A DNA stretch of 34,246 bases from contig JAGCPY010000027.1 of NCBI GenBank assembly GCA_017965425.1, positions 1 to 34,246 of the forward strand, read 5' to 3'. Source of the DNA: Bacteroidaceae bacterium (GTDB taxonomy: Bacteria; Bacteroidota; Bacteroidia; Bacteroidales; Bacteroidaceae). Each line of letters opens with the position of its first letter. Position 1 is the first letter of the stretch. Below the pieces are notes generated by a model that was not told where the DNA came from, did no database searches, and saw only the letters and a program-made list of their open reading frames with translations. Both the position numbers and the translations under genes were made by a program. Shown piece after piece: positions 8,350 through 29,907 of this stretch.

Positions 8350-9804
8350 CTATGGAACCAGGCGTTGATACATCTGAGAGAGGTTTTTGTCAATATTGGT
8401 TATCTTGAATTGAACACGAGCATTTCTTGTTTTCTTAGGCAGCATGGTAACGAGCTTATCCATAATCTGGTCAACATTAGAGAAACCAGTGTCTTCAATA
8501 GCACAGACCTTCTTACCCATGATAAACGCTTCTGCACGCACATTATTATATTTTGATAATTTCTCGAATGTTTTATCCTCCTTCTCAACATACTTGGATT
8601 CATTATCTGTGAAGAATATGAAATCAATAACCTTCTCGTTCAGAATCCATGCAGGAGTATAATCAACCTTCACATAAACTTTAGCCATCTTATTGATAGA
8701 GTGATTGAGACCAAAGTCAACTTCATTCATTGTCGCGCCACATTCATTCTGGGCTATTGTTGCCCAACTATGACGGAATGCGTACAATGATGCTTTGTAA
8801 TTTGGGTCAACTTTTTCCCATATCTGCTTAATGCCGATATTTACGTTAGCACAAAAAGAGTCAGAAGTTGACAAGCGGTCATGGAAATCGAACAGCCAAG
8901 GAGAATCAACGTTCTTAGATAGATATTTTTCAAAAGTAGGTTTTAAGAACGCTGGCACACGCACCTCAAAGTAACCTTTATCTGCGCGGGTGTTTCTTGT
9001 CTTCCGACGCTCATAATGGAAAATGCCATTGACATACTGATCTTTCTCAGCATTGAAAATATCAACTGCATTCAGACCACACATACAGAATGAGATTAAA
9101 GCAATATCCTGACCTAATTCCATAAGTGGATGGGTGAACCTACTTCTGTCTGGTACGACATTAAAGAACTTACGCAACATACTTGCTGGAATAGCACGTT
9201 TTTCAGGAATGTCACTTCTTGGGATGACAACATTGCACCATGGGTTCTTTAATCTAGCAATTCCTTGTTCCTCATCGTTGTATTCTTTCATCGCAGCCTT
9301 GTAAATTTCCCTTATACAAACAGGGTACTGTTCCTTACAGCGATTAGTTTCAGACAATGACTCAATCCATCGGTTAAGGAAAGCAGATGTAAGGCGAGAG
9401 AACATAATGTTATCTGTAAGGGCAAATCGTTCCATGTGATTGAGTGCCCACTTATAATTACGAGAGGTACGTTCTTGGCCTCTTTTGATTAGTTTCTCAA
9501 TATGCTTTCTCGCATAATCAGAAAACGACATATCCTCAGTTGAAGTCGTAAGGTATGCTACGACCTCTGAAGCTGTCCAGTTTGAAGTGTTAATCTGATT
9601 CAGTGTGCTATAATACCGACTAATCAGATTGGAAGTTTGTTGAATGACGTAAGGATCGATTACGTCCTTACCTTTGACTCCCTTATCGCTTACCATCCAT
9701 GAGGTTCTGATAAAGGAACTCTGTCTGTTATGAACTACTCGGATGTAAACAATGTACATCCCGGTCTTCAATTTTGATTTAACTGTGGGTTTAAGCGTTG
9801 CCAT
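8350..9804 (-). CDS. int: Tyrosine recombinase / integrase of the element
   Basis: A 484-residue site-specific recombinase of the Bacteroidales conjugative-element type. An N-terminal arm-binding-like region (1-90) precedes a SAM-like core-binding domain (about 110-220) and a catalytic domain. Catalytic motifs seen: RHSWATIA (Arg at about 342), GLNHSINKMAKVYVK (second-box His, and the nucleophilic Tyr at about 373), and YERRKTRN for the beta-hairpin Lys. The first-box Arg is absent: CMCGLNAVDIF has Asn where GLR is usual, as in IntDOT-type enzymes that lack the canonical Arg. The tail after the Tyr (about 110 residues) is longer than usual. It lies at the right end of the element beside a candidate attachment region. 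Confidence 0.9.
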   Translation of the reverse strand: MATLKPTVKSKLKTGMYIVYIRVVHNRQSSFIRTSWMVSDKGVKGKDVIDPYVIQQTSNLISRYYSTLNQINTSNWTASEVVAYLTTSTEDMSFSDYARKHIEKLIKRGQERTSRNYKWALNHMERFALTDNIMFSRLTSAFLNRWIESLSETNRCKEQYPVCIREIYKAAMKEYNDEEQGIARLKNPWCNVVIPRSDIPEKRAIPASMLRKFFNVVPDRSRFTHPLMELGQDIALISFCMCGLNAVDIFNAEKDQYVNGIFHYERRKTRNTRADKGYFEVRVPAFLKPTFEKYLSKNVDSPWLFDFHDRLSTSDSFCANVNIGIKQIWEKVDPNYKASLYAFRHSWATIAQNECGATMNEVDFGLNHSINKMAKVYVKVDYTPAWILNEKVIDFIFFTDNESKYVEKEDKTFEKLSKYNNVRAEAFIMGKKVCAIEDTGFSNVDQIMDKLVTMLPKKTRNARVQFKITNIDKNLSQMYQRLVP

Positions 9805-9886: not shown

Positions 9887-10004
9887 TTGGTCAACATCGC
9901 CTTAAAATCTGGTCAACATATCGCAAGCAAGGGTGGTTTTTTGCGTCGTTTCTGTTGATACCGTTTTTTGGCTTGGTCAACATGGCCTAAAAATCTGGTC
10001 AACA
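9887..10004. repeat. Four GGTCAACA iterons in two 32-bp direct repeats
   Basis: Two 32-nt direct repeats (9887-9918 and 9973-10004) agree at 30 of 32 positions. Each contains GGTCAACA twice, with starts exactly 22 nt apart (9889 and 9911; 9975 and 9997), placing them on the same face of the helix. They lie between the integrase start and the presumed end of the element, where arm-type binding sites of lambda-like integrases are expected. The role is inferred; the repeats are directly visible. Confidence 0.75.
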
Positions 10005-10027
10005 AATTGGGGTATTTAGCCAACACG

Positions 10028-12936: not shown

Positions 12937-13052
12937 AGAAATGAGCAAAAAAACCTTCAAACAAACTTATTTTTCATAAGAATCGTGTAGGAAATGGCAC
13001 ATAAGCATAGTCCGGTTCACGATGGCTCATCCCACACAAGGTTTTTCCAAAA

Positions 13053-13431
13053 AAATCCCTCAATCTCTCACCTAACGAGATAAGCGTCTGAAATAAAAGC
13101 TTTTGCCGGTGAGACTTTGGTGAGGAATGGGTGAGGGATGGTGAGGGAATAGCCCCCCACCCTCCCTTCAAGGGAGGGAGCTGTTGCCTTTGCAGACAAC
13201 AGTCCTTCATCCACTCTAACACATTCTGCTCCTTCCTTCACAGGGAGGACGGAGGGGTGTCTATTCCCTCACCATCCCTCACCCATTCCTCACCAAAGTC
13301 TCACCCGTAAATATTTGTATAACAATCCGATGGATAAAGAGGTGAGGGATTGAGGGATTTTGACTCAAATAACATGTATAAAGGAAGTAGCTGTCTGTGT
13401 TTTGACAATACGCATAGAAGGTGTACACGTT
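13053..13431. repeat. Large inverted-repeat element, copy A
   Basis: Inner arms of 45 nt (13108-13152 and 13261-13305) are perfect inverted complements. Outer arms of 21 nt (13053-13073 and 13340-13360) match at 20 of 21. Each inner arm is built of about four degenerate copies of GGTGAGGGAT. The 108-nt centre carries further small inverted repeats. A conserved tail follows, including AAGGTGTACACGTT at 13418-13431. A second copy lies at 21217-21532 in the same orientation. It lies between the ppdK promoter and a candidate sRNA locus. No protein is encoded, so it is a dispersed non-coding repeat of unknown origin. Confidence 0.85.
13161..13250. repeat. Nested small inverted repeats in the centre of copy A
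   Basis: CCTCCCT and AGGGAGG (13161-13167 and 13171-13177) form one small hairpin, and CTGTTG/CAACAG (13181-13186, 13197-13202) another. A second GGGAGG-type stretch follows at about 13243. None of this is present in the 28-nt centre of copy B, so it looks like a secondary insertion. Confidence 0.5.
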
Positions 13432-21006: not shown

Positions 21007-21216
21007 GCTAAAATATCCGAGATATATAGCCATTGAGGTGAAAAATTTAAGTCCTCATCCTGAAAATTGCGAGTGCATTCTTTCTTGGCCGTCCAACTGC
21101 GTAAATCTTTACAAGGATCTTCAACCTTTGAAGGACAGGACATTAGCTCTAATTCAATAATGAAAACAATCTTGTTTTTCAGCGTCCGAGACAGCGTTCC
21201 CCCTGTTTTTCGAAGA

Positions 21217-21532
21217 AAATCCCTCAATCCCTCACCTTTTGAGATAATCTACTGAGAGAAAGCCGATTGCAGGTGAGGGATTGGTGAGGAATAGGTGAGG
21301 GATGGTGAGGAATATCTTGCAGAAAGCGCAGAAAAAACAATCCCTCACCATCCCTCACCTATCCCTCACCAAAGTCTCACCTATAAATCACTGATTGGCA
21401 GCCTCGTAGGAGATAAGGTGAGGGATTGAGGGATTTCTGACCAAAAAGCCATGTATAGAAGGAGTGTTGTGTGCAGTGTCTTGATAATCAGCAGGAAAGG
21501 TGTACTCCTTAGTGGCGGAAGGTGTACACGTT
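21217..21532. repeat. Large inverted-repeat element, copy B
   Basis: Outer arms of 22 nt (21217-21238 and 21415-21436) are perfect inverted complements. Inner arms of 42 nt (21271-21312 and 21341-21382) pair with five mismatches around a 28-nt centre. The arms are the same GGTGAGGGAT-based sequence as copy A at 13053, in the same orientation. The tail contains the same AAGGTGTACACGTT (21519-21532). It fills the gap of about 700 nt between nadE and the transporter gene, which otherwise holds no gene that I can support. Confidence 0.85.
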
Positions 21533-27543: not shown

Positions 27544-29907
27544 CTAATACCATTTCCCAACGTCCGTGCTCGACGGTTTCCCCGTCGAGTCTCCAGCCTG
27601 CGTCTTCAATTTAATTTCTGCTGCTTTCAGTCCTTTTCCCTGAACGCTGACCGTCACTGTTCCTTTTTTCCCTGTGCTCCTGACAACCAACAAAGCACGG
27701 CCTTTCCATGCCCTGTGCCTATTGTCCGTCAAACGGTCACAGTCTTTGATGTCTGCATTGCCAAAGGCCACCATAGATGCCGGACCGGTGACTGTCGCGG
27801 TCAGTTCATCAGCTGCGTTAGGGTTCAGACAGCCTTTTGCATCTGTCAGTTCCACAGTGATGAACGCCAAATCTTGTCCATCAGCACACAAGGTAGTACG
27901 GTCGGCGCTTAGACGAATGGACTTCGGGGCGCTGGCCGTTTTTAGGACCACATGTTCCCCTCCTGCCTCGGCACGTAGCGTGCCTGCCTGATAAGGTAAT
28001 GTGAAAAGTGCCTTGCATTCTTTCACCAGCTCCTCACCGATAAGATGGTCGTTCAGGAATAGCTGCACTTTCGGAGCCCGTGTATAGACCTCTACCTGGA
28101 TGGGTTTACCTTCATGACCTGGCCACGTCCAGCTCTCGAAAGTCGGCCATGTTCCCCACATGGTCGTCTTTATGACTCCATTGTAGCCGTCCGGCTCTCT
28201 GACAGCCATATACAGCGGTTCTGTCTTGAGCCCCCAAAGCAGGGAACGGTAGTGACTGATAGGCTTGCGCATCCCAATAAGGTCGATGTCACCGCAGTAA
28301 GAAGCGTGCCAGGGGAATAGCGGTTGCACCCAGTGTTCGCCCGGCGTATCGCCCTCATAATACCAACGCCCTATGCCCGACTCACCCAGGTAGTCCATCG
28401 CCGTCCAGACGAAATCGCCAATGACGTATGCATTCTCCGCCACCTTCCGATGATTCTGCCAGGCATCACGCGGGTAGCTCTCTGTCTGCATCATGACGCG
28501 ATGTGGCACACGAGCGTGGTCGCTCTGTGACTTATGAATCATGTAATTGTATCCAACAATGTCATGCTCTGCAGCCAAGGGGTCATAGATATCCCAGTCG
28601 CTGTCCCATGCACAAAGAGCCGAGGTTACCGGACGATGCTGACCGTCAAGCTCGCGGCACAGCGTGGCGAGCTGATGCGCCGTCTTCACCACTTCAATCT
28701 TCTTACGCTCGATTACCTCGTTTCCTGTGCTCCAGCAAAAGACAGAGGGATGATTCCGGTCTCGCAACACCATCGCACGCACATCTTCCTCCCACCAGCG
28801 GTCAATCAGCGTTGAGTAGTCGTGATCGTTCTTCTTCTCACGCCAACCGTCGAAGACCTCGTCTATGACCAACATGCCCAGTTCGTCGCAAGCTCGCAGG
28901 AAAGCCTCTGACGGAGGATTATGCGACGTACGCACAGCATTGAAACCGGCCTCCTTCAACAGCTTCACCCTGCGGTATTCAGCGGCGTCAAAGGCCGCTG
29001 CACCGAGAATGCCGTTGTCGTGGTGAACACAGCCGCCATTGAGCACAATCGGCTGGCCGTTCAACAATAATCCTTTCTCCGCAGAGTACTCGATACTGCG
29101 GATGCCGAAGGTAACGGGCAGCCTGTCGCCCTCCGCCTCTATCGTGGTCGTGTAAAGGTATGGATCGTCTGGCGACCAGAGCCGTGGATTTTCAATACGA
29201 AGCGTCTTCTCGATGGGCTTGCGCAATCCATCCTCCACCACAACCTCCGCTTCGATATGCACCGTTTCCCCGTGACTGTGCTCGACGGTTTCCCCGTCGA
29301 GTTTCCTGCCTGAGTCTTTATTTGTCTGCATATCCCGCGTAGTCACCCGCACGCTCCACTCATCAATGTATCTCCGACCCGTCGTCAGCAACCATACATG
29401 ACGATAGATTCCCGAACCACTGTACCATCGGCAATTCTTCTGACGAGAGTTATCCACACACACTTCCACCACGTTGTTACCCTTCTTGATGAAAGGCGTC
29501 ATATCCACGAAAAACGATGAATAGCCGTAAGGATGACCACCTGCCCGATGGCCGTTCACATAAACGTCGGAATTCATATATACACCTTCGAAATACAGAC
29601 GCATCACCTTTCCATTTTCCATACCCGCGTCTTTCAGACCTTCCTCAAACGCCAAGCTCTCCACATAAAACGTCTTACGATACCACCCCCTGCCCGTCGG
29701 CAAATAGGCACCATCATTGCCAGCAGGAGCCTCCTTGTCAAACACGCCTTCAATGCTCCAGTCATGCGGCAGGCTGACTGGCCTCCACTCAATACTGTCT
29801 AAAGAGAAGCTCCAATCCGCATCGAAGAGTTGCTTGCGAACTGGCGTGGCAGCTTGAATGGCAACTGACAAGGCGAGAAATAAAAAGGGTGAGAATAGCT
29901 TTTTCAT
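27544..29907 (-). CDS. Glycoside hydrolase family 2 protein (beta-galactosidase-like)
   Basis: A 787-residue secreted GH2 enzyme. A signal peptide (1-19, LFSPFLFLALSVAIQA) precedes the sugar-binding jelly roll (about 25-185), an Ig-like domain, and the TIM barrel with HNPPSEAFLRACDELGMLVIDE and WSTGNEVIERKK (acid/base Glu). QTESYP is the likely nucleophile Glu. DUF4982-type and Ig-like C-terminal domains follow, as in many Bacteroidetes beta-galactosidases. The start ATG overlaps the gpx stop (ATGA). Two copies of a 25-bp palindrome interrupt the gene at about residues 202-210 and near the last 15 codons. The second Ig-like region around 200-235 looks shorter than usual. Substrate is uncertain among beta-galactosides, glucuronides and mannosides. 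Confidence 0.92.
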   Translation of the reverse strand: MKKLFSPFLFLALSVAIQAATPVRKQLFDADWSFSLDSIEWRPVSLPHDWSIEGVFDKEAPAGNDGAYLPTGRGWYRKTFYVESLAFEEGLKDAGMENGKVMRLYFEGVYMNSDVYVNGHRAGGHPYGYSSFFVDMTPFIKKGNNVVEVCVDNSRQKNCRWYSGSGIYRHVWLLTTGRRYIDEWSVRVTTRDMQTNKDSGRKLDGETVEHSHGETVHIEAEVVVEDGLRKPIEKTLRIENPRLWSPDDPYLYTTTIEAEGDRLPVTFGIRSIEYSAEKGLLLNGQPIVLNGGCVHHDNGILGAAAFDAAEYRRVKLLKEAGFNAVRTSHNPPSEAFLRACDELGMLVIDEVFDGWREKKNDHDYSTLIDRWWEEDVRAMVLRDRNHPSVFCWSTGNEVIERKKIEVVKTAHQLATLCRELDGQHRPVTSALCAWDSDWDIYDPLAAEHDIVGYNYMIHKSQSDHARVPHRVMMQTESYPRDAWQNHRKVAENAYVIGDFVWTAMDYLGESGIGRWYYEGDTPGEHWVQPLFPWHASYCGDIDLIGMRKPISHYRSLLWGLKTEPLYMAVREPDGYNGVIKTTMWGTWPTFESWTWPGHEGKPIQVEVYTRAPKVQLFLNDHLIGEELVKECKALFTLPYQAGTLRAEAGGEHVVLKTASAPKSIRLSADRTTLCADGQDLAFITVELTDAKGCLNPNAADELTATVTGPASMVAFGNADIKDCDRLTDNRHRAWKGRALLVVRSTGKKGTVTVSVQGKGLKAAEIKLKTQAGDSTGKPSSTDVGKWY
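27566..27590. repeat. Intragenic 25-bp palindromic repeat, copy 1
   Basis: Contains CTCGACGG and CCGTCGAG arms around a short centre. It lies at the very 3' end of the GH2 gene and is read as about STGKPSST in the tail before the stop. An identical 25-mer occurs at 29278-29302. Confidence 0.85.
29278..29302. repeat. Intragenic 25-bp palindromic repeat, copy 2
   Basis: Identical to the 25-mer at 27566-27590 and with partly similar flanks (GCCTG-N-GTCTT follows in both), but here it is read in another frame as about LDGETVEH. A degenerate half copy follows immediately on the coding strand, giving a second GETV. It sits in the linker between the jelly roll and the Ig-like domain. Confidence 0.85.

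Follow-up and report, generated by a model that had tools for sequence, protein, structure and literature searches.

TGTG-tagged REP-like hairpins within and between genes of mostly ruminant-gut Bacteroidales, and their association with one clade of long RAYTs

Repetitive extragenic palindromic sequences (REPs) are short (20–40 bp) palindromes that occur as dispersed hairpins, carry a 5′ tag GT[AG]G or CGTC, lie mainly outside genes and are associated with a cognate REP-associated tyrosine transposase (RAYT). RPE-4 and RPE-6 of Rickettsia have been counted among the intragenic REPs, intragenic GTAG REPs are reported, many of them in genes of DNA synthesis and repair, while most REPs are intergenic, and CGTC REPs are reported without a transposase (Di Nocera et al. 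2013, PMC3733652). Within the transposases themselves, TnpA_REP subclass 2.4 is reported to carry in-frame REPs between the HuH motif and the tyrosine; the subclass medians run from 148 to 325 aa, a few unexpectedly long proteins having been discarded (PMC6006769). Here we describe a family of hairpins represented by two copies in a glycoside hydrolase family 2 (GH2) gene on a 34,246-nt stretch of DNA from a Bacteroidaceae bacterium (assembly GCA_017965425.1, contig JAGCPY010000027.1, positions 1 to 34,246), the whole of which we call the window. The family shares with REPs the short dispersed hairpin and the association with a RAYT, and departs from them in its tag, TGTG, and in not being mainly extragenic. 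We consider it about 85% probable that these are REP-type elements, TGTG plus hairpin, scattered in a mostly ruminant-gut genus of Bacteroidales, likely mobilised by a cognate long RAYT and tolerated in genes.

The hairpin pair in the GH2 gene

Direct reading of the window gave GTGCTCGACGGTTTCCCCGTCGAGT in identical form at 27566–27590 and 29278–29302, each copy containing a perfect hairpin. An earlier note on this DNA, made from the letters alone, had drawn attention to this pair with its 8-bp arms and had assigned the gene to GH2, with which Pfam agrees. The features concerned are the following.

27544..29907, minus strand: host gene, a GH2 glycoside hydrolase of 787 aa (family by Pfam)
27549..27611, plus strand: repeat unit of 63 nt enclosing copy 1, with 83% identity to 29261–29323
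27569..27589, plus strand: REP-like hairpin copy 1, 8-bp arms and 5-nt loop; the preceding 4 nt (27565–27568) are CGTG
29261..29323, plus strand: 63-nt repeat unit around copy 2, 83% identical to 27549–27611
29264..29323, plus strand: in-frame 60-bp insertion around copy 2, edges ambiguous by about 2–3 nt
29281..29301, plus strand: REP-like hairpin copy 2, 8-bp arms and 5-nt loop, preceded by the family tag TGTG (29277–29280)

Both copies have their REP orientation on the plus strand, antisense to the GH2 gene. A search of the window for CTCGACGG-N5-CCGTCGAG with at most three mismatches returned these two places only, while 100 dinucleotide shuffles gave a mean of 0.16 matches and never more than 1. 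The flanks are alike over a longer distance than the note had described, 63 nt in all. Copy 1 is translated as DSTGKPSST from GH2 residue 773, near the C-terminus, and copy 2 as LDGETVEH from residue 203, between domains; peptides and locations had been read correctly before.

The 60-bp in-frame stretch around copy 2 is missing from all four close orthologues that were aligned (76–79% identity). The C-terminal end with copy 1 was not alignable to the same four, and because that end is not common to them the insertion of copy 1 is unproven; we consider it likely to be an insertion too. The proposal that the palindrome inserts into coding DNA without breaking the gene thus holds for copy 2 and probably for copy 1. 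Neither of the two observations named in advance as fatal to the proposal, the same residues at both places in distant orthologues or a 25-mer occurring nowhere else, was made: the hairpin recurs both in the window's own genome and in relatives.

The hairpin family and its insertions in other genes

The window's own genome (3.73 Mb, 96 contigs) held 24 places matching the tag-free hairpin with at most two mismatches, compared with 2 for the pattern written backwards, which was the control. Wider searches included the tag side and gave 35 places at up to three mismatches and, with a looser tagged pattern, 52 places at up to two, the control giving 0 in each case. Of 36 other genomes of the genus (G001–G036), half (18) had no match to the looser pattern and five had at least eight (G018 63, G029 19, G015 14, G019 9 and G016 8), and 24 genomes from other families gave 3 matches in total with 4 for the control. 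Scanning 84,980 named genomes retrieved 94 stretches with 39 accession prefixes, whose titles name Bacteroidales, Bacteroidetes, Bacteroidaceae, Prevotellaceae or Prevotella and in many cases rumen or other ruminant samples; the exceptions were one "uncultured bacterium" and one each of Clostridia, Ruminococcaceae and a lake actinobacterium. A search of viral contigs yielded a single one, IMGVR_UViG_3300032007_000258, whose 1449-aa open frame contains two family-like hairpins. We regard the family as small dispersed elements, probably mobile, of a mainly ruminant-gut Bacteroidales genus. A literature search on palindromic repeats of Prevotella gave nothing to the point among the matches listed, and in the library searched the subjects of RAYTs in Bacteroidetes and of REPs or REPINs inside genes led to no papers beyond the two cited above.

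In REP orientation the consensus is A[GC]TGTG followed by YYCGNCGG-TTTYC-CCGNCGRR; the unit of TGTG and hairpin measures about 25 nt. Over 153 unique copies conservation ended at the 21-nt hairpin and 6–7 nt beside it. The TGTG tag was 91–98% conserved, a value partly imposed by the search pattern, as is the conservation of the hairpin core and of the first 3–4 adjoining bases, since the patterns demanded them. Among copies found by the tag-free search with at most one mismatch, CAC/GTG adjoined the hairpin on the same side in six of seven. The arms covary: at arm position 4:16, which was left free in the pattern, the 153 copies had G-C in 71 cases, A-T in 44, T-A in 16, C-G in 8 and another combination in 14, with a mutual information of 1.16 bits against a shuffle maximum of 0.12. 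Both single strands were predicted to fold, at −9.5 to −11.6 kcal/mol.

In-frame insertions were found at two further genes. A UmuC-type polymerase gene of the window's own genome contains four 66-bp units (264 bp) with one hairpin each, which lengthen the IMS domain by 88 residues and are missing from all nine aligned homologues, eight from other genomes and one a paralogue from its own. In the glutamate synthase gene the window's genome and G016 share an insert of 21 bp, as long as the hairpin itself, which is missing from six relatives in a DNA alignment; these six were picked after viewing a protein alignment of 21 loci, in which only G016 shares the peptide, while the loops of the others, some shorter and some longer, hold unrelated inserts. 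The insert lengths at all three genes are multiples of three. One orthologous pair (L005 and L161), with and without the hairpin, aligned gap-free, which fits decay or change in place, so that hairpin differences are not all clean insertions.

Insertion in frame into coding DNA is the mark of the Rickettsia palindromic elements, which the earlier note had named as a likeness. Compared by description, RPE-4 and RPE-6 show the same in-frame palindromes in unrelated genes; as CGTC REPs they differ in their tag, which is not found here, and in that CGTC repeats are reported without a transposase, whereas a transposase is likely here. The hairpins are REP-like elements acting as this comparison suggests. 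The likeness therefore stands in effect, the closer family being the REP with its RAYT, and the note pointed to the right class, since RPE-4 and RPE-6 are themselves counted among intragenic REPs (PMC3733652).

Several observations were made beside these. The glutamate synthase (GltB) loop of G019 and G015 (L311, L318) holds a different and longer insert, TLSPLSRKxEG..., so the same place has taken unrelated inserts. A candidate CRISPR-like array (clustered regularly interspaced short palindromic repeats) with 66-bp spacing on contig C70 was rejected as such, the array being read in frame within the UmuC-type polymerase gene. One hairpin variant, CGCGGCGGGGAAACCGCCGCG, is arrayed with a period of 66 bp both at L224 1960–2180 and at L225 1237–1404, places unrelated to each other, of which one is inside the polymerase gene. 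At L223 6300–8520 an open reading frame (ORF) that looks like a transposase lies between two near-identical segments, each ending in a family hairpin (6442, 8490), an arrangement as if an insertion had split a gene and duplicated its end.

The long RAYT and its relatives

On contig C63 of the window's genome a 415-aa ORF is accompanied by five family hairpins within a span of 1.4 kb, two of them inside the ORF and one without the tag. Pfam did not recognise this ORF. It belongs to a family of which 34 of 35 members match the NCBIfam model REP_Tyr_transpos (NF047646) at E ≤ 0.01, the best at 6e-13, and relatives at E ≤ 1e-5 were found in 23 of the 41 genomes searched, its own included. The alignment of the 35 members shows no variation in the HuH motif MPxHxH or in one tyrosine, with a hypervariable stretch lying between the two; the model has the Y1 fold, with a single, putatively catalytic tyrosine. 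The two internal hairpins, near residues 140 and 170, fall in a stretch of low model confidence (pLDDT < 50) that lies between H96 and Y212. The long RAYT frames measure about 300–590 aa, and for their C-terminal half a fold like that of DNA processing protein A (DprA) is predicted. Similarity of that half to DprA was not significant by sequence (E 0.74–0.83 with DprA chains), and its Pfam matches did not include the DprA family.

The family hairpins are associated with one clade of these RAYTs. Family hairpins were present at 7 of 9 loci of the own type (best matches, at least 46% identity to the RAYT of C63), or at 5 of 7 when two loci first met through their hairpins were left aside, compared with 0 of 41 other long-RAYT loci, 15 of which came from the same hairpin-bearing genomes. 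At the level of genomes, 7 of the 20 with a RAYT had five or more hairpins and none of the 17 without a RAYT did (rank test, p 0.005), and long RAYTs were found in all of ten hand-picked hairpin-bearing named genomes. A route through the Pfam model Y1_Tnp had been tried and abandoned: the two matches in the window's genome had no family hairpins nearby beyond chance, and the hairpin-bearing G018, G029, G015, G019 and G016 had no match at all. The evidence against RAYTs that this result seemed to supply was overturned by the hairpin cluster on C63, at a RAYT which the Y1_Tnp model had missed.

Of the described systems, TnpA_REP subclass 2.4 (RAYT group 4), likened here by description, has the same in-frame REPs between HuH and Y; it differs in the tag, GT[AG]G against TGTG, and genes are hardly avoided here. 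The frames here measure about 300–590 aa and have a DprA-like C-terminal half, against subclass medians of 148–325 aa. DprA and ShosA are the nearest likeness of that half, here fused to an HUH transposase and below significance in sequence. Literature joining DprA with a RAYT or HUH tyrosine transposase was not found in the library searched, which covers part of the literature. The TGTG tag, the frequency inside genes and the RAYT with a predicted DprA-like half set the family apart from described REPs.

Other RAYTs in the genus are accompanied by other hairpins. A second family, with GTAT, GTGT or GTTT as tag in most copies, was found at RAYTs of G029, G018 and G002; 17 of 25 copies lay in ORFs, compared with 1075 of 1200 random positions, and the codon check left 5 of 29 strictly coding. 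The RAYT of G007 (L284 224–1918, on G007:C175) is surrounded and entered by yet another palindrome, GTATTCTTCGACC-AGG-GGTCGAAGAATAC-like, at three places and in a shorter variant.

Genes, strands and competing explanations

Avoidance of genes by the hairpins is slight if there is any. Judged by ORF length, 34 of 42 copies in the window's genome and 91 of 117 in named loci lie within ORFs, against 85% and 87% of random positions. A stricter codon-usage test of both flanks placed 16 of 42 and 44 of 112 inside one coding frame, against 39% and 46%; trained on 14 ORFs of the window's genome taken as real genes, this test was correct at 302 of 400 gene positions and so misses many. All such position counts include orthologous copies from related genomes and are not independent events. 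Like the intragenic GTAG REPs, the hairpins occur inside ORFs including one of DNA synthesis or repair, the UmuC-type gene; the former are mostly intergenic, while those described here are found in genes about as often as random positions.

Several points weigh against a RAYT-mobilised REP family. No movement has been observed, and we infer both the mobility of the hairpin and catalysis by the RAYT. The comparison genomes are metagenome-assembled and uneven in completeness, and the 140 matches of the looser pattern in the 36 genomes of the genus stand against 13 for the backwards control, so that a genome with 1 to about 3 matches may owe them to chance. The RAYT of C63 matches REP_Tyr_transpos at E 6e-5 and 22.9 bits, with a curated cut-off of 80, and just 10 of the 35 family members match Y1_Tnp. 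Two of the nine own-type loci have no hairpins, 7 of 20 RAYT-positive genomes have none anywhere, a distant RAYT of G018 outside the locus comparison (L268) holds one family-like hairpin, and G018 itself, the hairpin-richest comparison genome with 63 places, has only distant RAYTs (best E 3e-15).

An unlikely alternative is that the hairpins are not moved by RAYTs at all and owe their spread and perfection to replication slippage, templated (quasi-palindrome) repair and gene conversion, the RAYT gene collecting them through its disordered insert. The tandem arrays with host sequence in the unit, four of 66 bp in the polymerase gene, agree with it, as do the indels by which the flanks of orthologous copies differ and the report of CGTC REPs without a transposase (PMC3733652). 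The single-site insertions of 21 and 60 bp argue against it, and so does the link to one clade, 7/9 or 5/7 against 0/41, although other RAYTs also have variable inserts.

Strand and frame bear on two further explanations. By ORF length 103 copies were sense and 22 antisense (n = 125), and some of the 22 may lie in false ORFs; in the strictly coding copies the REP strand was the coding strand in 57 of 60, the other three being opposite. The frame SVxxGFPxx was used in 48 of these 60, and the frames that add arginine-rich peptides were used least (6 of 125, judged by ORF length). The window's two copies belong to the rarer antisense class, yet lie in a real gene. For them it is DNA and not peptide that is conserved, as the earlier note had it, a statement that does not extend to the family, in which 48 of 60 share one strand and frame. 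Neither the direction of neighbouring genes, by which antisense copies divided 12 to 9, nor GC skew settled a preference for one replication strand. Selection of the motif as an mRNA hairpin, for stability, translation or processing, with the RAYT link secondary, would be expected to give such a strand bias. We think it improbable: Rfam gave zero matches in the 10 hairpin loci searched, the copies occur in unrelated genes at unrelated places and are patchy among species, and the strand bias fits peptide better than RNA because the frame is biased too. The bias would instead be produced by selection on the added peptide. That a conserved peptide SVxDGFPVx, whose frame 48 of the 60 copies use, is itself the object of selection and the palindrome its by-product is barely credible, since residues covary (P with G, L with E, D with V, G with A) in the manner of reverse complements, as is not expected from peptide constraint, and other frames, the opposite strand and non-coding places are used as well.

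RAYTs cut REPs in vitro, and insertion is hard to catch; to our knowledge the mechanism of REP movement is still open. DprA binds single-stranded DNA and loads RecA. For the RAYT-mobilised hairpins preferred here, the N-terminal HUH/Y1 domain would bind the hairpin as single-stranded DNA, with TGTG as a guide, and would nick next to the tag, cutting with Tyr212; the disordered insert of the RAYT itself carries REPs. The DprA-like C-terminal part might handle the single strand or recruit RecA. Copies would land both in genes and between them; those that break genes would be lost, and in-frame ones in places that tolerate extra peptide, such as loops, linkers and chain ends, would be kept, slippage expanding some of them into tandem arrays. 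More tentatively, and with rather less than even confidence, we suggest that a lineage of RAYT-DprA fusions mobilises tagged hairpins as single-stranded DNA, that the DprA-like domain guides them into genes, perhaps through RecA, and so keeps supplying them with in-frame peptide, and that different RAYT clades serve different hairpin families. The joining of a RAYT to a DprA-like domain points to a concrete partner for REP movement, namely single-stranded DNA handling and possibly RecA, and in-gene REPs that add 7 to 88 in-frame residues amount to a natural experiment that may show in which protein loops new peptide is tolerated or advantageous.

Other repeats were seen in the window. Long inverted repeats of GGTGAGGGATT-like 11-nt units lie at 13041–13361 and 21205–21447, with arms of 87 nt at 80% and 43 nt at 88% identity; the same unit is found in tandem at L222 4772–4814 and 5090–5129 and is probably another dispersed repeat. 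Two 35-nt direct repeats (9887–9921 and 9973–10007), 91% identical and 86 nt apart, lie beside the ORF 8350–9804, a tyrosine recombinase by its appearance, of which they are perhaps the attachment region.
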